NCBI GenBank assembly: GCA_018266395.1
Contig: JAFEAM010000038.1
Span: 46,741 to 110,740 of the forward strand
From: Bacteroidota bacterium
Lineage (GTDB): Bacteria; Bacteroidota; Bacteroidia; Cytophagales; Cyclobacteriaceae
Direction of reading: 5' to 3'
DNA length: 64,000 bases
Notes under the pieces: model-generated
Told to the model about the DNA's origin: nothing
The model's input: only the letters and a program-made list of their open reading frames with translations
Databases searched by the model: none
Made by a program: the position numbers and the translations under genes
Shown: one piece after another, positions 5,190-54,059 of the stretch
How the letters are laid out: each line of letters opens with the position of its first letter
Position numbering within the stretch: the stretch's first letter is position 1

Positions 5190-8100
5190 CTAGTTCTCGG
5201 AATTCAACACAAATGCTCCCCAAAAGTAAGGATGAGGAAACATTGCTTTGGTCTTAGTCATTGCAAAATTATAAGCTTGCTGCACAGTAGCCCCTCCAAA
5301 ATAGGAATTGTAAAAGGATTCCATATAGTTCACCGTTGCCTCATCGCTGATTTTCCACAATGACCCCAATACGCTCTTCGCGCCGGCAAGTTGAAAGGCT
5401 CGTTGCAAACCAAAAACACCTTCTCCAGCCTGCACTTCGCCTAATCCGGTATCACAGGCAGACAGCACTACCAGCTGCGTTTTGGGCAATTGAAGCTGTG
5501 TCACCTCATATGCTGTTAAGAATCCGTCCTCGTATTGCTTATAGTCGGCCAGAGTGAAAAAGTCTTGATCACCTGCGCCTGCCAAAATCAGTTTCGACTG
5601 TAAGTACGAGTCAACCATTTTGCGGTTGTCGAAAGTGCCATGGGTAGCGATATGCAATACACCTGGGTTCTTCAGCTGTTTTACTTTGGCTTCGGTGGCC
5701 TCTGGGCCTTCTAGTCTTTGGATATTTACTTTTTTGTTACCTGCTAATTGTGCTATTACATCGACTTCTTGTTTGGTTCCGGGTAAAGCTGAAAAGCCGG
5801 CACGCGTACCACTGCCTGCCGAAGCAACCTCTTCCAGATCGAATGACTTCAATTCAATTTTATTAACGCTGTTCTTTCTATTCATTAGAAAGTCCGGGTT
5901 GCCCAACAAGGCCACCGAAGTGATCGGCAGGGCTGCCAATTTCTTCTTCAACAAATCCCGTCCGGTGGAAATGCGCACAAGGTCCGTTTCTTCGAACAAA
6001 AACTTCCCGGTTGTCGGATTCCTCAGGGTCAAAGGGTTGATCATGTTGTATACACCGTCGCTGCTTAGATATACACGACTTTTGCCTACGGCATCGCTTA
6101 TCTGCTTCCAGTAGACATTATAGCTATCGTTATCATCCGATTGCGATCGGATCAGGTTTTGATAGCGTTTCAAGCTGCGCAATTCAAAATCATCACCTTC
6201 ACCTAAATACAGTGCAGCAGGGGAAGAGGTGCCACCCTTGATGACAAAAGCCCAGTATTGCGGAACAGGCTTATCGAACATGAAGTTTTCGCGTTCTATA
6301 CGAACGATTTCCACCAGGGCTTCATTAGTCTTCAGTACAGCCTGAATTTTCTGCCAGCTTACCGGCTGAATCAGGGTTGTAGCAATCCCAAGTTTTTCAT
6401 TGACCTTCCGCTGAAGCTCATCGGTAATCACGGCATAGCGGTTGATGGAATCAGTTAGAGCAGGAGTCATTGCCTGCTGAATCTGCTGCGTAAATGCGGC
6501 TTGTTTGTCGCGGTAATCTTTGAGCCGTGCCAACTGCGCGATCACTAGAGTATCGGTCACAGATTGAAGAATTGATGTTTGGCTGCGCGTAATGTCGAGA
6601 ATAAGCCCTTTGGTTTGAAGTGATTTGTTTAATACCTCAAGTACTCTGGCTTGATCCTGATCCGCAAATGAAAGCAGCATGGAATAGTATAGGTGCAGGG
6701 ATTTGTTGAAATCCTTCATGAACTCTTTCCGCTGGCCTTCAGAAAAGGAAATAAAATAACGCTCAAGATCTTGCTCTTTGGAACGAAGATCGCCTAGTAT
6801 TTTTTCATTAGCTTCTTTGAATTTGCCAGAGGCACAAAGCAGCTTCACGTAATCATCATTTTGCCGTTGCTCAAGATTGACAACTGCCTTACCGAAGTGC
6901 TTGGACTCCGAAAATGTCCGGAGTTTATCTGACAGATCAGCATAAGATTGCTGGGACATGCCAAACTCCTTGTTGAGATGATAATAAATAGCCTTGTCAT
7001 GGAAGCCAATGGACGCTTGCAATGCCTCATTTTTCCGACCCAACTTCATAAGTGAAATCACATATGCTGATGACTCTGAAAACTCACTTTCCACCAACGA
7101 TCGAAATTCTTCGCTTTCCTTAATCAACTGTTTTACTGAATCTGGAAGATAAACGGGTGTCTTGGCAATGGTGTGTTTTAAGGTATTCCCCAGTAATTTA
7201 TCTTTCTCCTTGTTCAGGTTTTGATATTCAACCAGATAGGGTAAGGCTTTTTCAAAGTCATATTGCCTAAAATAAGCCGTGGCCAGAACATAGACATATT
7301 GCCACTCAGCCAGAACCTTCATTATATTCTCTGTGTTTGACTCGATTGGCTTCAACGTTTTCTCAAATGCCTCCTTTTGCTTCGACTGCTGTTTCTGAAG
7401 CCATTTTGGATCGTCTTTGTCCACTTTATAAATCTTGTGCCACGCAGAATCATTTTCGGTGAGCTTTTGCCCTGATTTCAAAATCTCCGCTACCGGCATC
7501 ACCGCTTCGATAGCTTTTTCGGGTTCATCATTAAGGTTGTAAAATGTTCCCAGTGAGCATAGATATGTGGCTCTTGACATTGGATCCCTGGCCATGTCCT
7601 TGTTTACTTCCAACAACCGTATGGCGCTGTTAAGGAGACCATGTTGAGCATATGAGGTTGCTAAATTTGTGATATCCATATTTGCGGTTTTCTCAGGATA
7701 TAGCTGGTAGAAAAACCTTGTGACAAATGGGAAATATCTTCTCCTCGCTTCAATGGCCGTTTCAAAACAACTGATGGATCCGATCAGATCAGACTTGGCC
7801 AATGCCGCCCCGGCATACTTATAGGCAGCATAATACTCTTCGTCTTCCGGCGTGAATGTCTTATTTACTTCTTCCAACAATAATTTTGCATGAGCAGGAC
7901 TGTAGCTTAGGCTTCTCATTAATTCATCATACCGTGTATAATCAACGGTTCTTGTTCTTTTTCGGCTTTTGAGGTTTTTTAATCGGATACTAACGATGTC
8001 AATTATGTCCTGCGTTGACATTGGAGATCGAAAAGCTTTCTCGTAAGTCTTGTACCCATCTAGTTCCACTTTAATGGTGTAATCACCTTCAGGACATCTT

Positions 8101-8312
8101 TTGAATTCAAAAGTACCTGCAGCTCCAGGACTCGTAGTCCTAACTCCACCAGGCCCGGTTAACGTAATTACAGCGTCTGACAAAGCATTATAATTGTCAG
8201 CATCTATGACTGATCCTGATATGGGCATTTTTTGCCCAGCAAGGAATGAGGACATGAAACATAATATTACCGTTATAGAAAATCGGGGGGTTAAGATTGT
8301 CTTTAGATGCAT
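5190..8312 (-). CDS. Exported TPR-CHAT protein (caspase-like protease fold)
   Basis: A 1040-residue protein. A signal peptide (about 1-26, ending FLAGQ) is followed by a carboxypeptidase-regulatory-like beta sandwich (about 29-105, SGSVIDADNYNALSDAVITL). A long helical TPR region (about 125-560) and a coiled segment precede a C-terminal CHAT domain (about 690-1035). The CHAT dyad is intact: His in HIATHGTFD and Cys in LSACDTGLGEVQAGEG, followed by GLQRAFQLAGAKSVLGSLW. CHAT domains are clan CD peptidases related to caspase and separase. The TPRs likely recruit a partner, and the signal peptide places it in the periplasm or outside. Target and partner are unknown. It is transcribed alone, convergent with 4675-5055. 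Confidence 0.9.
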   Translation of the reverse strand: MHLKTILTPRFSITVILCFMSSFLAGQKMPISGSVIDADNYNALSDAVITLTGPGGVRTTSPGAAGTFEFKRCPEGDYTIKVELDGYKTYEKAFRSPMSTQDIIDIVSIRLKNLKSRKRTRTVDYTRYDELMRSLSYSPAHAKLLLEEVNKTFTPEDEEYYAAYKYAGAALAKSDLIGSISCFETAIEARRRYFPFVTRFFYQLYPEKTANMDITNLATSYAQHGLLNSAIRLLEVNKDMARDPMSRATYLCSLGTFYNLNDEPEKAIEAVMPVAEILKSGQKLTENDSAWHKIYKVDKDDPKWLQKQQSKQKEAFEKTLKPIESNTENIMKVLAEWQYVYVLATAYFRQYDFEKALPYLVEYQNLNKEKDKLLGNTLKHTIAKTPVYLPDSVKQLIKESEEFRSLVESEFSESSAYVISLMKLGRKNEALQASIGFHDKAIYYHLNKEFGMSQQSYADLSDKLRTFSESKHFGKAVVNLEQRQNDDYVKLLCASGKFKEANEKILGDLRSKEQDLERYFISFSEGQRKEFMKDFNKSLHLYYSMLLSFADQDQARVLEVLNKSLQTKGLILDITRSQTSILQSVTDTLVIAQLARLKDYRDKQAAFTQQIQQAMTPALTDSINRYAVITDELQRKVNEKLGIATTLIQPVSWQKIQAVLKTNEALVEIVRIERENFMFDKPVPQYWAFVIKGGTSSPAALYLGEGDDFELRSLKRYQNLIRSQSDDNDSYNVYWKQISDAVGKSRVYLSSDGVYNMINPLTLRNPTTGKFLFEETDLVRISTGRDLLKKKLAALPITSVALLGNPDFLMNRKNSVNKIELKSFDLEEVASAGSGTRAGFSALPGTKQEVDVIAQLAGNKKVNIQRLEGPEATEAKVKQLKNPGVLHIATHGTFDNRKMVDSYLQSKLILAGAGDQDFFTLADYKQYEDGFLTAYEVTQLQLPKTQLVVLSACDTGLGEVQAGEGVFGLQRAFQLAGAKSVLGSLWKISDEATVNYMESFYNSYFGGATVQQAYNFAMTKTKAMFPHPYFWGAFVLNSEN

Positions 8313-8638: not shown

Positions 8639-8770
8639 GGCGCCCCAAGCGGATGGGTAATGATGGAGGTGAGAGTTGACAGTGCGTAGGCTTGGTGGTT
8701 CAAAGACCAAGAAAAGGAGGGATGGACGGGATGGGTGCTATTTCGCAATAAGACCAACGAGGGCGCGCGG
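8639..8770. repeat. Cassette-type hairpin repeat, copy A
   Basis: This copy begins GGCGCCCCAAGCGGATGGGTAA and contains TGCGTAGGCTTGGTGGTT, a short loop, ACCAAG, then GGGTGCTATTTC and GACCAACGAGGGCG. It shares its order of words with copies at 9478, 10386, 11300 and 12213. The hairpin arms here read CTTGGT/ACCAAG. It ends 8 bases beyond the 3' end of the gene at 8779-9426. Confidence 0.7.
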
Positions 8771-8778
8771 TAAATATT

Positions 8779-9426
8779 TTATTTGCTGTATATACTTCCT
8801 TTAAAGGCCTCAGTCTTTTTAAACCATAACGCAAGAAACAACATCATCAGGGGTGCAGTTATCGTCCATGGAATGGCTAAAAGCAGGATGGTTTCAGAAA
8901 AATCAGGATAGAAATAAACAAAGGCAATAAGGGGCGTTACCAGGGCATTTGCCAAAAATGCAATCCGCACCCATTTATCAAATCCTTGCCTTTTAAATAG
9001 TGGTAATACAAATGCAGATGCCAACCCCATGCAGATATAACCTACAGCATCAAAGTCCCAGAACATGGAATGTGGGTATTGAACCAGCACTGCAACTTTA
9101 TCTATTTCGCCTTTGAGGTTCATGGGTATCACCGTGGCCAGCTGAACAACATAGTTGGCGGAAACGAACACAGCATACATAACGGTGAAAATCAGCGCCG
9201 CATGGCTCCAGAATTTGTTATCGTTTTCGGTTACATAATGCAAGGCAAGTATTTCAATTATGAAGGGCAGAACTATGCAAAGAGAGAACCCGTAGATAAG
9301 AATTTCATCGTACGGATAGCTTAATAGTCTCAAGAGTTGCAAAGACTGAGCTATTATGAACAATGCATTTGCAGCGAATGCTATTATTCCGGCACGAAAG
9401 CCAATTTTATAAACATTTGTATTCAT
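8779..9426 (-). CDS. Six- to seven-helix membrane protein, function unknown
   Basis: A 215-residue integral membrane protein with about six hydrophobic helices (for example FRAGIIAFAANALFIIAQ, ILIYGFSLCIVLPFIIEIL, ALIFTVMYAVFVSANYVV, VGYICMGLASAFVLPLF and two more near the C-terminus) and no recognised catalytic motif. Family unknown. It is the last gene of a minus-strand series of accessory genes, each followed by the same hairpin repeat (copy A here), so it may be a mobile cassette rather than part of an operon. Confidence 0.65.
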   Translation of the reverse strand: MNTNVYKIGFRAGIIAFAANALFIIAQSLQLLRLLSYPYDEILIYGFSLCIVLPFIIEILALHYVTENDNKFWSHAALIFTVMYAVFVSANYVVQLATVIPMNLKGEIDKVAVLVQYPHSMFWDFDAVGYICMGLASAFVLPLFKRQGFDKWVRIAFLANALVTPLIAFVYFYPDFSETILLLAIPWTITAPLMMLFLALWFKKTEAFKGSIYSK

Positions 9427-9477
9427 TTGTCTGAAACTCTTTTGTGTCGAACGATTGCTCAGTTCCGCGTGGCTGCA

Positions 9478-9674
9478 ATGCTAATCTACGAATTAGACCA
9501 GGCACGTAGGACTTCAAATGCCTGAATTGAGAATTCTAATCCCACCGGAATGACAATGAATGCGTGCGACTCGATAATCCGCGGGCTTGTTGGTTCTGCC
9601 TGCCTGACGGCAGTCAGGCAAACCAACCAAGGGCGGCGCGGGTGCCATTTGGCGGGAAGACCACCGAGGGCGGA
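9478..9674. repeat. Cassette-type hairpin repeat, copy B
   Basis: Left part: TGCTAATCTACGAATTAGAC and ATGAATGCGTGCGACTCGAT. Core: GGGCTTGTTGGTT, then a nested hairpin TGCCTG...CAGGCA, AACCAACCAAGGGCGG, GGTGCCATTTGG and GACCACCGAGGGCGG. It lies 125 bases beyond the 3' end of the VOC gene (9800-10276). Confidence 0.75.
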
Positions 9675-9747
9675 AGGTTAATGGGTAATAGTATCAGCAA
9701 GTCTTGTAGACTATTCTTAGTTGTCGTTACTCGATTTGGTGCATCCC

Positions 9748-9787
9748 TTCCTCGCGGAGTCTCCCGTGAGGGGACTCTGCAGGGGGT
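9748..9787. repeat. REP-like palindrome (GAGTC...GACTC type)
   Basis: CGCGGAGTCTCCCGTGAGGG followed by GACTCTGCAGG forms an imperfect hairpin. The same element occurs at 37137-37167 and in variant form at 37213-37241, so this is another dispersed palindrome family. Confidence 0.55.
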
Positions 9788-9799
9788 TGGCCACTGAAT

Positions 9800-10276
9800 T
9801 CATTTAAGTTCCGACAGTATCAATTTCTTTTGCTTAAATGTGTTTCTCATTGCTCTTTCTCTGACTTTTGGATCGCTACTGTGTATCAAGTCAAAATATT
9901 CAACTGGCACAACTTGCCATGACAAGCCGTACTTGTCTTTGCACCACCCACAAGGTCCTTCTTGCCCTCCATTGGAAGTAAGCGCTTCCCAATAGTAATC
10001 AACCTCGTCCTGGTCTTTACAATTTATCACGAGTGACAATGCTTCATTGAATTTAAACATGGGTCCCGCAGCGAGAATGGAAAATTCCACTCCTGCAAGT
10101 TCCATTACAGCAGTTTCAAAACTGCCATCATTGCCAGCACCGTCAGCATTTGGTGTATTTTCAAATAGACGATAGTCTTTAAGTCTGCCGTCTTTAAATA
10201 TGGACAAATAGTATTCAGTAACCGCGTTGGCATCCTTTTCAACCCAGAGACAGGGGGTGATTTTTTGATTGTTCAT
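9800..10276 (-). CDS. VOC-superfamily (PhnB-like) protein
   Basis: A 158-residue protein typical in length and sequence of the PhnB/3-demethylubiquinone-methyltransferase-like branch of the vicinal-oxygen-chelate superfamily. The start ITPCLWVEKDANAVTEYY matches the family opening, followed by FETAVMELAGVEF, LVINCKDQDEVDYYWEAL and the C-terminal CGWCKDKYGLSWQVVP. Family members bind small molecules and sometimes metal; most are uncharacterised, so the substrate cannot be given. It sits between repeat copies B and C and is transcribed away from an unusually strong hairpin at 10331-10363. VOC proteins are common cargo of gene-cassette arrays. Confidence 0.85.
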   Translation of the reverse strand: MNNQKITPCLWVEKDANAVTEYYLSIFKDGRLKDYRLFENTPNADGAGNDGSFETAVMELAGVEFSILAAGPMFKFNEALSLVINCKDQDEVDYYWEALTSNGGQEGPCGWCKDKYGLSWQVVPVEYFDLIHSSDPKVRERAMRNTFKQKKLILSELK

Positions 10277-10330
10277 GGGATTTGATTTTATGATCGTTGA
10301 TAATTAGTATGACGTTGCGGTGTGGGAGTT

Positions 10331-10363
10331 TGGTATTCTCCGGATGGCGTCCGGAGAATGCCA
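10331..10363. repeat. Long perfect hairpin upstream of the VOC gene
   Basis: TGGTATTCTCCGGA (10331-10344), loop TGGCG, then TCCGGAGAATGCCA (10350-10363): 14 paired positions including one T-G wobble. It lies 55 bases upstream of the VOC start on the other strand and next to repeat copy C. It has no T tract, so it is more likely part of the repeat or a structured leader than a terminator. Confidence 0.65.
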
Positions 10364-10385
10364 GGCGCGACTGGTTCGCGGCCTC

Positions 10386-10574
10386 GCACATGCCGGGTGT
10401 TGCTAGGGAACTAATTTACAAATTAAGCGGTGACTGGAGGATTGCACATATCAGAAGGTAATCCTAATTCCATCGATGGATAATGAATGCGTGCGACTTG
10501 ATTGTGAATAGGCTTGTCGGTTCCAGCAGCCAAGGGGGGAGCGGCTGCTATTTGGAAGGGAGACCAACGGGCGG
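10386..10574. repeat. Cassette-type hairpin repeat, copy C
   Basis: Left part: ACATGCCGGGTGTTGCTA and CTAATTTACAAATTA, nearly identical to copy D. Then ATGAATGCGTGCGACTTGAT, a shortened arm pair CTTGTCGGTT/AGCCAAG, GGCTGCTATTTGG and GACCAACGGGCGG. It lies 103 bases beyond the restored 3' end of the ParE-type toxin. Confidence 0.75.
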
Positions 10575-10676
10575 AGTGCATATGACTTTTGCAGTATAGG
10601 AGCGATTGATAAATAATCCGCCAGCGTAGAAGACTCTTGATCACAAATTGGATTATCTCTATGATATTAATAGTGC

Positions 10677-10980
10677 TCAAGTTAAAAATCCTTTTCGCTT
10701 GGGTCCTGATCTGGTGTCAAAGAAATTCAGAAGAATGATTTCTTCGTCAGTAACTCTGTAAAAAAAGTCGGTTGTGTTTTGTCAGCAAGAAACCCCGAAT
10801 TTTTCTTTCATGGTTTTCTAAGGTTCCCAATTCAGGTTGGTCTGAAATTAAATCGATTATGTCGTAAGTCTTCCTGACGAAGTTTTGGGTAACATTCGGC
10901 CCCCATTCTTGCTCCAAATAATCAATGATTTTGTTGAACTTGTTGTTGGCCCTTCTTGTCCAAACTATTTTCTTAGCCAT
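10677..10980 (-). pseudogene. RelE/ParE-type toxin, frameshifted in a T7 run
   Basis: The open part (77 residues, MAKKIVWTRRANNKFNKI, then GFLLTKHNRLF) is a RelE/ParE-superfamily toxin of the kind that inhibits gyrase or cleaves mRNA. After LF the frame runs into a premature stop at 10747. Removing one base from the seven-base homopolymer at 10760-10766 restores a normal C-terminus (YRVTDEEIILLNFFDTR, then SGPKRKGFLT) ending with TGA at 10677-10679, giving the usual length near 100 residues. So the gene is intact except for a +1 homopolymer change: a real mutation, phase variation or a sequencing error. Its start overlaps the antitoxin by 16 bases. Confidence 0.8.
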
Positions 10981-11204
10981 TTGTCATGCTGTCCTCTAAC
11001 TTCCTCGTGGCTAATTAAATTCTTTGGGTCAGAACTTTCCGCATATGAAATCAAAAGTTCATCCTTTTCCTCAGAACTTAAGGAGTCCCAAAGCCCCCCA
11101 GTCTGGTTCTTATTCAGTCTTTGTATCAGTTCAAAATAGCCCTTTAAGGTTTCTTCATTTTCAATATGGTCTATCAGCTTATGGAATGCTTCTTTGGTAC
11201 TCAT
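10965..11204 (-). CDS. Antitoxin partner of the ParE-type toxin
   Basis: A 79-residue acidic, helical protein (MSTKEAFHKLIDHIENEETL...SSEEKDELLISYAESSDPKNLISHEEV) whose last 16 bases overlap the start of the toxin, the classic coupled arrangement. The C-terminal phrase ending EVRGQHDKWLRK is similar to antitoxins that wrap around ParE toxins. The DNA-binding domain is not obvious. It is intact, whereas its toxin is frameshifted. The cassette is bounded by repeat copies D (upstream) and C (downstream). Confidence 0.75.
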   Translation of the reverse strand: MSTKEAFHKLIDHIENEETLKGYFELIQRLNKNQTGGLWDSLSSEEKDELLISYAESSDPKNLISHEEVRGQHDKWLRK

Positions 11205-11299
11205 AATTTCAATAATTCATTGTTCAATTTACTCGATTCTCCCGTGTTTTGAAAGTTAGCAATAACCGATAACGTCCCATGCGCATACTCGCAGGATCG

Positions 11300-11520
11300 C
11301 AACATACCGGGTGTTGCTAAGAAACTAATTTACAAATTATAAGGTGACTATAGGATTGCACATACCAGAAGGTAATCCCAATCCAATCGATGGGCAATGA
11401 GTACGTGCGACTTGATGGCACGTAGGCTAGTTGGTTCTGCCTGCCTGACGGCAGTCAGGGAAACCAACTAGGGCAAGGGCAGGGTGGGTGCTATTTGTCG
11501 AGAAGATCAACGAGGGCGGA
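11300..11520. repeat. Cassette-type hairpin repeat, copy D
   Basis: The longest copy: ACATACCGGGTGTTGCTAAG, CTAATTTACAAATTA, ATGAGTACGTGCGACTTGAT, arm CTAGTTGGTT, nested TGCCTGCCTGACGGCAGTCA, arm AACCAACTAG, GGGTGCTATTTG and GATCAACGAGGGCGG. The outer arms read CTAG...CTAG where copy E reads CTTG...CAAG, a compensatory change. It ends 10 bases beyond the 3' end of the hepT remnant. An inverted pair TTAGCAA (11258) / TTGCTAA (11313) flanks its left side. Confidence 0.8.
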
Positions 11521-11529
11521 GGCCCTCAC

Positions 11530-11842
11530 TCAATTACTTTTCTTGGCTTCCTCTTTTAGAGGTCTCAAATGTCGTGTACCAGATAATAGAGTCGTCAACA
11601 TTGTCGTAAGAGTGGATCAACCGATTTCTCAGACTGATTATCTGAGACGCGTTCATTTGAGCCTGATTCTTTTAAAAATTTATTGACTGCTTCTCCTGTA
11701 ATACCTAAATGTCTTTCGACAGCTCCTTTTGTTTGAGATCTTTCTCGTAGTCAGCGAATGATTTTAAATCTCTTGTAAAAGTCTCAATTAGTTCAATTGA
11801 GTTTATGATGTCAGACAAAAACGTTTTCTCCTTCTCTGTCAT
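11530..11842 (-). pseudogene. hepT: hepT-like HEPN toxin, three frameshifts
   Basis: No single open frame spans this stretch, but stepping through frames recovers an almost complete HepT: MTEKEKTFLSDIINSIELIE and DYEKDLK in frame one; KGAVERHLGITGEAVNKFLK in a second; SLRNRLIHSYDNVDDSIIWY in a third; HLRPLKEEAKKSN before TGA at 11530-11532 in a fourth. The HEPN RNase motif R-x4-H (RNRLIH) with the following Tyr is still readable. At least three indels make it non-functional. It overlaps the end of the intact mntA by 32 bases, the standard MntA-HepT order. Confidence 0.85.
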
Positions 11843-12152
11843 AAATCAACTTTTTTGTCCGATCAATATTTGCCTTCAGATAGGGATTTCGAATTGAGTC
11901 CTCAGTCAATAAGTCTACCTTCCACTTGAAAAGTCCTTCAAGTTTGTCCCATAACGAAAGAAGTGCTTCTCCCCGGTCAATAGGGTCGTCAATGTCCACC
12001 TTAACAACAATGTCGATGTCGCTTTTTTCAGAGTCAAAATGGTCAGTGATCGATGACCCAAAGGCATAGATTTTGTCGACTTTGTGAGAACGACATAGTT
12101 CAACAAAGTCGGTATACCTTTCTCTTATTAAAGTCATCAAATCCATATCCAA
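11811..12152 (-). CDS. mntA: MntA-type minimal nucleotidyltransferase antitoxin
   Basis: A 113-residue protein of the minimal nucleotidyltransferase family. The polymerase-beta-like active site is visible: GSS (about 32-34), then DIDIVV with Asp45 and Asp47, and a third carboxylate in KVDLLTED (Asp80). In characterised pairs MntA AMPylates and silences the HEPN toxin HepT. Here mntA is complete while the downstream hepT carries three frameshifts. Alternative in-frame starts exist at residues 3 and 6. The pair lies between repeat copies E and D. Confidence 0.85.
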   Translation of the reverse strand: MDMDLMTLIRERYTDFVELCRSHKVDKIYAFGSSITDHFDSEKSDIDIVVKVDIDDPIDRGEALLSLWDKLEGLFKWKVDLLTEDSIRNPYLKANIDRTKKLIYDREGENVFV

Positions 12153-12212
12153 ATATACCTAATTTTTGGCCGTCACTTTTTTGAGGCGCCTGGGAACTGT
12201 GAGCGACTTGAC

Positions 12213-12370
12213 AGGCGCTCCCAAGTGGATGGGTATGAAGGGGGAGAGACTTGATAGTGCGTAGGCTTGTTGGTTCTGGAAACCAACAAGGGCGGCGTGG
12301 GTGCAATTCGACAAGAAGCCAACGAGGGCGGGGTGGGTGCTATTTGGCAAGAAGTCCAACCGAGGGCGGG
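12213..12370. repeat. Cassette-type hairpin repeat, copy E (with internal duplication)
   Basis: This copy begins GGCGCTCCCAAGTGGATGGGTA, as copy A does. Its compact hairpin is GGCTTGTTGGTT-CTGG-AAACCAACAAGG, followed by two consecutive versions of the tail: GGTGCAATTCGACAAGAAGC with CAACGAGGGCGG, then GGTGCTATTTGGCAAGAAGT with CAACCGAGGGCGG. It lies 74 bases beyond the 3' end of the helical-repeat gene at 12444, marking the upstream end of the repeat-punctuated region. Confidence 0.75.
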
Positions 12371-12443: not shown

Positions 12444-12965
12444 TCACTCCAAAATCGGATGCGGAGCATCGGAGGGGCGCTCCTCCAGGTTGAATTGCAT
12501 GATGGTGCGTGCACAAGTATTCCATCGCAGAACAGGATCGTTGTTCCCGGAAGGAGCCAATGTGCTCGCTTTCTCATAATAATCCATGGCCTCGAGATAC
12601 CACTCGTACGCATCATAATCGGAACCGTGTACGGCTGATGCAAGCGCCACGGAGCCTTGTCGTTCATGGACAATGCCGGTATAATAAAGCCGGCTGTAAT
12701 CGTCTTTCAGTTTGTTGGCAATTTCCTGAGCTTGTTTGGCCGCGTTAGGCGCCGAGCCGAATTGATCCGTGAGTGCAAGCAACAGTACGATAGAAGCTTT
12801 CTGGTTATTGGCATCTACATCCAAAATGTCGAGACAGATGCTTTCGGCCAGTTTAGGTTGATTCAACAGGCGGTAGTGCTCGGCTTTGTTGAGCGCGCTT
12901 TCAACGGCTTCCCTGGCGAGTGGCTTCAGGGAGAAAACCTTCTTATTTGTCTCACTAGTGCTCAT
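12444..12965 (-). CDS. TPR-like helical protein at the end of the sdh operon
   Basis: A 173-residue all-helical protein resembling tetratricopeptide repeats: ALNKAEHYRLLNQPKLAESICLDILDVDANN and later AYEWYLEAMDYYEKASTLAPSGNNDPVLRWNTCARTI. There is no signal peptide or membrane segment, so it is cytoplasmic. It starts 12 bases after the sdhB stop and is therefore almost certainly co-transcribed with sdhCAB. It could help assemble or tether the complex, but that is inference from position only. Confidence 0.7.
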   Translation of the reverse strand: MSTSETNKKVFSLKPLAREAVESALNKAEHYRLLNQPKLAESICLDILDVDANNQKASIVLLLALTDQFGSAPNAAKQAQEIANKLKDDYSRLYYTGIVHERQGSVALASAVHGSDYDAYEWYLEAMDYYEKASTLAPSGNNDPVLRWNTCARTIMQFNLEERPSDAPHPILE

Positions 12966-16845: not shown

Positions 16846-17038
16846 AATCCAAATTTAGTTCTTTTTGTTGAGTCTTAATTGTCGTGACGGCATTACCGCC
16901 TCGAACATGCCTAGTGTTGCTGGGAAAACTGTCTACTGTTGCAGTCAAGCGAACTTCCTTAGATATCCTTTATTTTGACTCCACCATTATTCCGTCTTGA
17001 ACCCATTTTTTCTCATCTTCGCGTCAATCATATTTTCT

Positions 17039-52043: not shown

Positions 52044-54059
52044 ATGGATCAAGATCTCTCTTTTCAGGATCAAATTCTGGCCGGTCTGGGAGAAGACCTT
52101 CCCGCCCCCAAGCCCTACGACGAATCTGCGAACCATGCTCCCCGCAGGAAAGAAATCCTCTCTGCTGATGAGGTGAAGCTGGCGTTGAAGAACGCCCTCA
52201 GATACTTCCACCCCAGGCACCACGAGACGCTGGCTCCGGAATTCTATGAAGAGCTAAGCCGCTTCGGTCGCATCTACATGTACCGTTACAGACCTGAATA
52301 TGAGTTATTTGCACGCCCTTTATCCGAGTATCCCCACAAGTCCGTTCAGGCTGCCGCTATTCAGCTGATGATCCAGAATAACCTGGATCCTGCTGTTGCT
52401 CAACACCCGCATGAACTGATCACCTATGGCGGCAACGGGGCCGTCTTCCAGAACTGGGCGCAATACAGGTTAACCATGCAGTACCTGGCGACCATGACCG
52501 ATCTGCAGACACTTCACATGTATTCGGGCCATCCGATGGGATTATTTCCATCATCCAAAGGGGCACCCCGCGTGGTGGTGACAAACGGTATGATGATCCC
52601 GAATTATTCAAAGCCCGACGATTGGGAACGCTACAACGCGCTGGGAGTGACCCAGTATGGCCAGATGACTGCAGGCTCATACATGTATATCGGTCCACAG
52701 GGAATAGTGCATGGCACCAACATTACGCTGCTGAACGCCGGCAGGAAGATCTCAAAACGTGGAGAGGGACTGGAGGGAAAACTGTTCCTTTCATCGGGTC
52801 TTGGCGGCATGAGTGGTGCTCAGCCGAAGGCGGGAAAGATTGCAGGATGTGTTTCCGTCATTGCTGAAGTCAACCCCAAAGCTGCTCACAAAAGACATCA
52901 GCAGGGATGGGTGGATGAGTTGACGAGCGACCTTGGTGAGTTATCGCGTCGCGTGGCGAGAGCAAAGCGCGACAAAGAAGCCGTGTCACTCGCTTACCTC
53001 GGCAACATTGTTGATGTGTGGGAGCGCTTTGCATTTGAAGAGATAAATATTGACCTGGGATCGGACCAGACTTCGTTGCACAATCCGTGGGCGGGTGGTT
53101 ACTATCCGGTATCACTGAGTTTTGAAGATTCCAATAAACTTATGGCCAGTGACCCTGATGCATTTAAGGGTCATGTTCAGGAATCCCTTCGCAGGCAGGC
53201 TACCGCCATCCGTCATCATACCAACCGGGGAACTTATTTCTTTGACTACGGCAATGCATTCCTGTTGGAAGCATCCCGTGCCGGCGCCGATGTACTTTCC
53301 GATGACAAGATGCGCTTCGCATATCCTTCTTATGTCGAAGACATCATGGGCCCCATGTGTTTCGATTATGGCTTTGGACCTTTCCGTTGGGTTTGCACCA
53401 GCGGGAAAGAGGAGGATCTGGATATGACCGATGCACTCGCAGCAGAGGTGATTACAGGGCTGTTGAAGAATGCACCGGAAGAAATCACGGGACAGTTGGA
53501 AGATAACCTGAACTGGATCAACGCAGCCAGGGCCAATCAGCTCGTTGTAGGTTCAAAGGCCCGCATTCTTTACGCAGATGCGACCGGGAGGCAGATGATA
53601 GCCGAAGCATTTAACAAGGCCGTTCGGGAGGGAAAAATTGGGCCCGTGGTGTTGGGTCGTGACCATCATGATGTGTCTGGTACCGACAGCCCGTATCGGG
53701 AGACCGCCAATATTTATGACGGATCACGCTACACTGCGGATATGGCTGTACAGAATGTGATCGGCGACAGCTTTCGCGGAGCCACCTGGGTCTCTCTGCA
53801 CAACGGCGGAGGCGTAGGCTGGGGTGAAGTGATCAACGGGGGTTTCGGCATGTTGCTTGATGGTTCAATGGAAACCGACCGGAAGATCAGGAGCATGCTG
53901 AGTTACGATGTCAATAATGGTATTGCCAGAAGAGCATGGGCGCGTAACCCTGGTGCATTGGCAACCGCAAGGAATGCCATGACGCACAATGAAGACCTTC
54001 GCGTTACGCTGCCACACCTTGCTGACGATGGCTTGCTGGATCGTGTAGTAAAGAAGTAA
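52044..54059 (+). CDS. hutU: Urocanate hydratase (long form)
   Basis: A 671-residue urocanase, longer than the common 550-residue enzyme. Core motifs are intact: YGGNGAVFQNWAQY, LTMQYLATMTDLQTLHMYSGHPMGLFPS, GQMTAGSYMYIGPQGIVHGT, SGLGGMSGAQPKAGKIAG (NAD+ site) and YGFGPFRWVCTSG (Cys near the active site). It hydrates urocanate to imidazolone propionate in histidine catabolism. hutH and hutI are not in this window. The N-terminal 100-residue extension may be a Bacteroidota-type addition. The start follows the patatin stop by one base. Confidence 0.93.
   Translation: MDQDLSFQDQILAGLGEDLPAPKPYDESANHAPRRKEILSADEVKLALKNALRYFHPRHHETLAPEFYEELSRFGRIYMYRYRPEYELFARPLSEYPHKSVQAAAIQLMIQNNLDPAVAQHPHELITYGGNGAVFQNWAQYRLTMQYLATMTDLQTLHMYSGHPMGLFPSSKGAPRVVVTNGMMIPNYSKPDDWERYNALGVTQYGQMTAGSYMYIGPQGIVHGTNITLLNAGRKISKRGEGLEGKLFLSSGLGGMSGAQPKAGKIAGCVSVIAEVNPKAAHKRHQQGWVDELTSDLGELSRRVARAKRDKEAVSLAYLGNIVDVWERFAFEEINIDLGSDQTSLHNPWAGGYYPVSLSFEDSNKLMASDPDAFKGHVQESLRRQATAIRHHTNRGTYFFDYGNAFLLEASRAGADVLSDDKMRFAYPSYVEDIMGPMCFDYGFGPFRWVCTSGKEEDLDMTDALAAEVITGLLKNAPEEITGQLEDNLNWINAARANQLVVGSKARILYADATGRQMIAEAFNKAVREGKIGPVVLGRDHHDVSGTDSPYRETANIYDGSRYTADMAVQNVIGDSFRGATWVSLHNGGGVGWGEVINGGFGMLLDGSMETDRKIRSMLSYDVNNGIARRAWARNPGALATARNAMTHNEDLRVTLPHLADDGLLDRVVKK

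Follow-up and report, generated by a model that had tools for sequence, protein, structure and literature searches.

Among described systems, the closest to the one reported here are integrons (IntI, attI, attC), clusters of attC sites without integrase, termed CALIN (PMC9668308; PMC9024848), and the repetitive extragenic palindromic (REP) elements that go with REP-associated tyrosine transposases (RAYT). The DNA analyzed here, herein referred to as the window, is a stretch of 64,000 nucleotides (nt) from a member of Bacteroidota (family Cyclobacteriaceae, contig C31), in which five copies of one repeat, A to E, follow a series of minus-strand genes. These repeats derive from a RAYT transposase; the same genome contains an integron-type system with different repeats, of whose sites the window retains four fragments.

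The literature was covered by titles and the beginnings of abstracts, preprints and most subscription journals being outside this scope. Bacteroidota are named among the phyla with integrons (PMC8618304; PMC9668308), and intI genes were recorded in the Bacteroidetes/Chlorobi group (PMC2426708); these are possible earlier sightings of the system described below. The IntegronFinder 2.0 paper names one complete integron in Bacteroidetes, that of Salinibacter ruber (PMC9024848). In Riemerella anatipestifer, the aph(3')-IVb gene has an attC-like 3' untranslated region that inserts without flanking homology (PMC13148043). The extra helix of IntI was perhaps gained by an ancestor for recognition of folded single-stranded sites (PMC4792948). 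Within this scope, no Bacteroidota integron system with a recombinase lacking the IntI-specific insert (I2) was described.

Origin of the repeats A to E

The original prediction likened the five repeats to attC sites of an integron cassette region and named a REP-like element or miniature inverted-repeat transposable element as the main rival. All five were confirmed in the sequence at their predicted places and in one orientation. The E-values refer to matches with the 3' end of the RAYT gene described below.

12213..12370, plus strand: REP copy E, with the tail present twice (E 4e-21)
11395..11522, plus strand: REP copy D (E 1e-8)
10480..10577, plus strand: REP copy C (E 4e-8)
9554..9674, plus strand: REP copy B (E 2e-6)
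8639..8767, plus strand: REP copy A (E 2e-13)

For the repeats, the REP-like rival proved right. On contig C11, three copies surround a gene encoding 181 amino acids (aa) (L038:9693-10238, minus strand), one overlapping its 3' end and two located upstream. This gene belongs to the NCBIfam family NF047646 (REP_Tyr_transpos, REP-associated tyrosine transposase; 90 bits, cut-off 80). Its score with Pfam Y1_Tnp (14.3 bits) is below the cut-off of that model, and a genome search with Y1_Tnp gave three matches, none of them the RAYT beside the repeats, which the NCBIfam model recovered. The last 150 nt of the gene together with 140 nt downstream were used as a query, the copy within the query being excluded. 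Matches to the RAYT 3' end were obtained for all 21 compared copies (5 in the window and 16 elsewhere), with E-values from 9e-55 to 2e-6; in 13 cases, the match starts inside the gene. Therefore, repeats A to E are REP-type elements derived from a RAYT transposase.

A genome search with copy E gave 21 matches on ten contigs, in both orientations and often clustered; four of them belong to the window, where copy C was the one missed. The tail pattern, with up to 3 mismatches, was found three times in the window (copies A, B, and D) and in none of 100 shuffles. Three of the four folded hairpins, from copies E, D, B, and A, are better than shuffled sequences (z -3.2 to -4.0), and that of copy A is not clearly better (z -1.1). 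Copies C and D have a longer stretch in common (83% over 136 nt). As read by eye, with one row out of register, GTAG precedes the hairpin in about 9 of 22 listed copies, including 3 of 5 in the window; the others have GCAG or variants. At gathering cut-offs, Rfam found nothing over the window but one tRNA.

The distance of 8-125 nt claimed between the last stop codon and the repeat holds for three of the five cases, namely the helical-repeat gene (73 nt), the gene for the vicinal oxygen chelate (VOC) type protein (125 nt), and the membrane protein gene (11 nt). It fails for the toxin open reading frame (ORF; 169 nt) and for mntA, whose stop lies 288 nt from the repeat because no minus-strand hepT ORF of at least 60 aa was listed.

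Cassette arrays and their recombinases

Sequence beyond the hairpins of copies C and D matched other contigs of the genome and revealed a second, different repeat. In C37:1-6150, small genes on one strand are nearly each followed by a hairpin site of 131-183 nt. About 25 distinct attC-like sites were found on contigs C18, C19, C37, C44, C9, and C42 with a covariance model built on 18 sites, so that 18 of the 25 or so are its own training sites. The arrays consist of tandem cassettes with attC-like hairpins, mostly in one orientation; those on C18, C19, C37, and C44 lie at contig ends. The arrays on C18 and C19 adjoin a tyrosine recombinase gene on its 3' side and are read in its direction, and the contigs C9 and C42 have no match to the integron-integrase model. 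In the inner (L) stem of the 18 sites, 15 of 17 pairs have two-sided changes; the covariation score of this stem is 0.67, compared with a mean of 0.17 after shuffling and at most 0.12 after sliding, the structure having been derived from the same alignment. The bottom strand beats shuffles in the fold of four of five sites; in the cell, such sites would presumably fold as single strands.

Two further observations concern these contigs. In C19:6-1109 (L066), two 235-nt stretches, 97% alike, belong to a short cassette without evident gene that is present twice in the array. Other short palindromic repeats, around CCGCAGAGTC...GGGACTCTGCG, form dense families in the stretch C42:1-7200 (L067), and a motif similar to them was noticed by eye near 9750-9785 of the window.

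An integron cassette is a circle closed at one site, so that its outer end box has to be complementary to the start box of the same cassette rather than to the partner box belonging to the same site in the array. Exact reverse complementarity between end box and start box was found in 76 of the 101 cassettes tested in three sets of Bacteroidota arrays. The first set has 36 perfect cassettes among 46 over six variable positions (mean 5.63 of 6), as against 3 of 46 for the own-site box, and 20,000 permutations gave a mean of 2.69, with no more than 8 perfect cassettes. The second set has 23 perfect cassettes of 31 (own box 0 of 31; permuted maximum 7), and the third has 17 of 24 (own box fitting in 1 of 24; permuted maximum 6). 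For the first set, 109 rows were listed, and omission of 19 antisense and 7 partial, short, or cut ones left 83; these gave 54 adjacent pairs, 1 of them too far apart and 7 with a box out of register. The second set used 43 of 47 rows (34 pairs, 2 too far apart and 1 rejected), and the third 41 of 49 rows (35 pairs, 2 too far apart and 9 rejected). Judged from the sequences, such mirror boxes are the signature of circular cassette exchange.

Box pairing sets in sharply with the G of GTT, the preceding base being paired in 0 of 48, and reaches position 9-10; position 11 is a fixed mismatch, the start side having A in all 48 cases, after which pairing resumes to position 15. The core box is GTTR in 79 of 79 cases, and GTTRRRY fits only 5 of 79. 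The exact position of the cut is hidden by the constant GTT, and we therefore only infer it. One array of a congener (L208, G007:C8:1-14000) includes a recombinase, an attI-like box, and twelve sites, with perfect mirror boxes in 10 of 11 cassettes. By eye, the cargo of this array includes a DNA methyltransferase-like gene.

In 13 of 24 loci, a box that fits the end of the first cassette in at least 8 of 9 positions is located behind the recombinase at a distance of 60-150 nt; when the boxes were dealt among loci 2000 times, the mean was 1.2 and the maximum 6. Over the whole interval, an attI-like box was found in 22 of the 24 loci (in 9 of them farther off than 60-150 nt) and in two there was none. 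Some of these boxes are more than 400 nt away and two more than 1 kb, where chance is likely. Perfect attI-like boxes are located at 67 nt on C18, at 34 nt on C19, and at 137 nt in L208.

By sequence, the C18 recombinase matches XerC-like/XerA structures and IntI4, aligning to the latter over both halves and the C-terminal tail. With the integron integrase model TIGR02249 (cut-off 265), the C18 and C19 proteins score 209 and 206 bits, below the cut-off. The cut-off of NF040815 (220), a family whose name includes 'integron integrase', is just reached by the C18 protein (220.8) and not by the C19 protein (212.9). The C18 protein is also below the NCBIfam cut-offs for XerC (196 vs. 335 bits) and XerD (205 vs. 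330 bits). The span between the motifs GKGxKDR and HTLRHSF has 99-101 residues in all five IntI references; in the recombinases of 80 related loci it has 38-63 residues (58 in 68 of them), and in the two proteins of this genome and in six more it has 58. The IntI-specific insert I2, of about 40 residues, is thus found in 5 of 5 IntI references and in 0 of the 88 recombinases checked (80 loci, the two of this genome, and six more).

Long recombinases have approximately 90-100 extra N-terminal residues and the array downstream. Shorter frames, of 282-335 aa between stops, were found in the five fetched cases of divergent arrays, located on the 5' side. Among 25 layouts, hand-picked from genomes with a listed site on the same contig, 19 have the long form with the array downstream and 6 are divergent with the array on the 5' side. 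The N-terminal part of the long recombinases, of about 90 residues, forms a conserved alpha/beta segment. For the L117 recombinase, an AlphaFold model has a predicted local distance difference test score of 85.7 and a predicted template modeling score of 0.61; in a fold search with it, the 50 listed PDB matches are whole recombinases, XerA and IntI4 being the first. In a tree of 36 rows, including 27 of the 80 loci, IntI proteins form a clade (Shimodaira-Hasegawa-like approximate likelihood ratio test 99), and IntI proteins with the new recombinases split from two Xer proteins of this genome (97). Monophyly of the new recombinases is weak (63) and long branches meet, so the tree does not decide whether they are sister or ancestor.

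The 80 loci, found with the two recombinases of this genome, are the best 80 of 439 relatives and belong mostly to Bacteroidota, with few records labelled otherwise. In approximately 482 kb of these loci, 69 sites were found 3' of the recombinase and 0 on its 5' side. At least one site is present in 25 of the 80 loci and in 23 of the 24 with at least 2 kb of 3' flank. Contig ends lie no more than 300 nt 3' of the recombinase in 31 of the 80 loci, with 2.8 expected. Among 247 evenly drawn Bacteroidota genomes, at least 119 have sites and 80 have the recombinase; the first number is a lower bound because 13 candidates were scored per genome. Sites are present in 70 of 80 genomes with the recombinase vs. 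49 of 167 without it (Fisher p 9e-19), a count that takes the 247 genomes of the site scan and of the recombinase scan as the same draw.

Sites behind a recombinase of this family also seem to be present on plasmids of Chryseobacterium and, with weaker matches, of Rufibacter and Pontibacter; matches to the site model are strong for Chryseobacterium and weak for Pontibacter. A simple box finder gave chains on the plasmids L243, L244, and L245 (3, 2, and 3 on the plus strand). The same finder gave 3 and 2 chance matches in the reversed window; being that noisy, it leaves the plasmid chains resting mainly on the model matches. A separate observation concerns an Acinetobacter plasmid (L242:4052-6205), where a recombinase of the family without the N-terminal part, 50% identical to the C18 protein, lies directly in front of tet(X3). 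Ahead of tet(X3), an attI-like inverted repeat containing a GTTA box was recognized by eye; behind the gene, the site model gives a weak and partial match (17.1 bits, E 0.047), the boxes not being mirrored. Possibly, tet(X3) is an old first cassette here.

Proposed history of the window

Within the window, the covariance model R1 of the genome's attC-like sites gave one partial match (14.6 bits, E 0.073). BLAST with 25 attC-like sites of this genome found four minus-strand fragments (E 2.4e-16 to 1.6e-5):

10353..10426, minus strand: attC-like fragment adjoining copy C and preceding the VOC gene (E 2.4e-16 and 82% over 74 nt against the last site of C37; the R1 match of 14.6 bits)
11302..11339, minus strand: attC-like fragment adjoining copy D (92% over 38 nt against the C44 site, E 1.5e-10)
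10574..10614, minus strand: attC-like right-arm fragment, located behind the toxin gene and in contact with copy C (two matches, of 87% over 31 nt with E 1.6e-5 and of 79% over 39 nt with E 2e-4)
16895..16936, minus strand: attC-like fragment beyond the sdh operon, outside 8639..12370 (85% over 39 nt, E 2.9e-7)

A fifth match, of 18 nt at 53601-53618 (E 0.029), was taken as chance. Copies C and D have three of the four fragments next to them, placed around the toxin-antitoxin pair and ahead of the VOC gene. On account of these worn fragments, the region is read as a decayed attC-like cassette region overlaid by REP elements, and we consider this quite probable. The toxin-antitoxin pair, the VOC gene, and similar genes would then have arrived as cassettes of a Bacteroidota integron-type system. 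In such a system, the tyrosine recombinase would cut folded attC-like hairpins at the GTT(A/G) box, and cassettes would move as circles and insert at the attI-like box beside the recombinase gene. The window array would have no recombinase of its own and its sites would have decayed, the RAYT transposase leaving hairpin REP copies after genes and next to site remnants.

The following genes of the region were considered:

12444..12965, minus strand: helical-repeat gene after sdhB (present in 6 of 6 congeners fetched with this sdhB)
11811..12152, minus strand: gene for an MntA-like nucleotidyltransferase antitoxin (above the cut-off of PF18765 with 45 bits and below that of NF047752 with 36.5 bits)
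10965..11204, minus strand: antitoxin gene (no Pfam match over cut-off; 40% identical to the gene just behind the last C37 site)
10747..10980, minus strand: ParE-like toxin ORF, ending early relative to the profile (PF05016, 33 bits)
9800..10276, minus strand: gene for a VOC-type protein (PF06983, 125 bits)
8779..9426, minus strand: membrane protein gene, weakly DUF4386 (19.7 bits, below the cut-off of 27.6)

The mntA/hepT pair of the original prediction was recovered in part: the first gene is above the Pfam nucleotidyltransferase cut-offs but below that of the NCBIfam MntA model (36.5 vs. 60 bits), and hepT was missing from the listed minus-strand ORFs of at least 60 aa. The toxin ORF aligns to positions 1-61 of the 89 of ParE_toxin and then stops short. 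The toxin-antitoxin pair has homologues on C37, immediately after the last site, and on C11; a homologue of mntA lies about 1 kb from the C18 recombinase. In agreement with the original prediction, which saw no integrase gene in the window, the integron-integrase model has no match on its contig. The proposed comparison of sister strains agreed in one respect only: in six congeners, gene content behind sdhB varies, with sdhB and the helical-repeat gene kept, and gain or loss between intact repeats was seen in none. In the stretches fetched from these congeners, about 3 to 14 kb behind sdhB and some ended by contig ends, the other tested window genes were absent and nothing was similar to the window array at the DNA level. 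In a search at E 1e-5 of 35 other genomes from the genus, the REP family of A to E had no match. Next to the region, at 5190-8312, the window encodes a 1040-aa protein with an N-terminal carboxypeptidase-regulatory-like domain and a C-terminal CHAT protease domain.

Some observations weigh against the decayed cassette region or the wider system. In the window, intact attC-like sites were not found, nor were paired mirror boxes where they would be expected, and the matches in 8 of 9 positions look like chance; therefore, none of its genes passes the cassette test. No attC fragment adjoins copies A, B, or E, the window locus was found in none of the fetched congeners, and, given the longer stretch shared by C and D, a single duplicated piece may account for two of the fragments. 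On seven of the ten REP contigs, the fetched stretches contain no attC-like site. Outside the window, 25 of the 101 tested cassettes are not perfect, including 2 of 3 on contig C9; two of five in G044 (L210) match at 0 of 6 positions, and one in L144 at 1 of 6. The fifth folded site is no better than shuffles (z -0.87), L169 has more than 2 kb of 3' flank and no site, 10 of the 80 recombinase genomes have no site, and 49 of the 167 recombinase-free genomes have one.

The proposal that A to E are themselves the attC sites of a cassette array would account for one copy after each gene or pair, the single orientation in the window, and the cassette-like cargo. Almost no credence can be given to it, as the copies are 3' ends of a RAYT element, occur elsewhere on ten contigs in both orientations, and differ in sequence from the genome's attC-like sites, whose model R1 finds none of them in the window. 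The region could instead be a plain REP-rich intergenic island, formed by ordinary horizontal transfer and piled-up REPs, with attC fragments by chance; the seven REP contigs without sites (C24, C11, C10, C6, C52, C35, and C53), the gene content, variable in any case, and the possible duplication near C and D fit such an origin. We regard it as rather unlikely, since four fragments with these E-values fall in one 64 kb window, three of them around genes with homologues at or near real arrays.

REP transposases and integron-type recombination both act on folded single strands, and REPs might insert preferentially into folded attC-like hairpins, making the association a target effect of the transposase. 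On three of the ten REP contigs (C18, C44, and C31), REPs do lie within a few kb of attC-like sites, recombinase, or fragments. This count was made post hoc and without control, however, and no intact site was seen to be cleanly interrupted by an insertion, which makes target preference quite improbable. As for the arrays elsewhere, it is doubtful that they are ordinary integrons with a diverged IntI: the alignment of the C18 recombinase to IntI4 over both halves and the tail, the TIGR02249 scores of 209 and 206 bits, and the NF040815 cut-off just reached speak for this, but both proteins stay below 265 bits in TIGR02249, the IntI-specific insert is found in 0 of 88 recombinases, and GTTRRRY fits only 5 of 79 boxes. 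For the window, a decayed cassette region overlaid by REPs remains the most likely reading.

Comparison with known systems

The arrays likely represent a phylum-wide and apparently overlooked family of Bacteroidota integrons, in which folded-site cassettes would be moved by recombinases without I2; the family would have arisen without I2 or represent a stage between Xer and IntI that precedes it, and the window would be the fate of such an array once overrun by REPs. If so, a family swapping cassettes without the extra helix would make the origin of integrons directly testable. It would also hold a large unmapped reservoir of mobile genes, with sites in 119 of 247 sampled Bacteroidota genomes and, seemingly, on some plasmids.

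The Riemerella aph(3')-IVb 3' untranslated region, likened here by description only, is similar in belonging to Bacteroidota and in having an attC-like fold after the gene; it differs in that the covered part of PMC13148043 names no recombinase. With known REP/RAYT elements, A to E have in common a short hairpin, copies after genes, and a RAYT gene flanked by copies. They differ in that the family had no match in the 35 other genus genomes searched, and perhaps in the GTAG tag, seen by eye in only about 9 of 22 listed copies. The arrays on C9 and C42 are similar to CALIN. The window region would be a decayed CALIN, different in that its sites are fragments only.

Integrons and the arrays described here are alike in arrays of small cassettes, hairpins with paired inner arms, mirror outer boxes, and an attI-like box near the recombinase. 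They differ in three respects: the Bacteroidota recombinase has no IntI-specific insert, the box is GTTR with pairing over 9-10 nt rather than GTTRRRY, and the array is 3' of, and co-directional with, the long recombinases. In reverse-orientation integrons such as those of Treponema, recombinase and cassettes are likewise in one orientation, but with a true IntI, unlike here.

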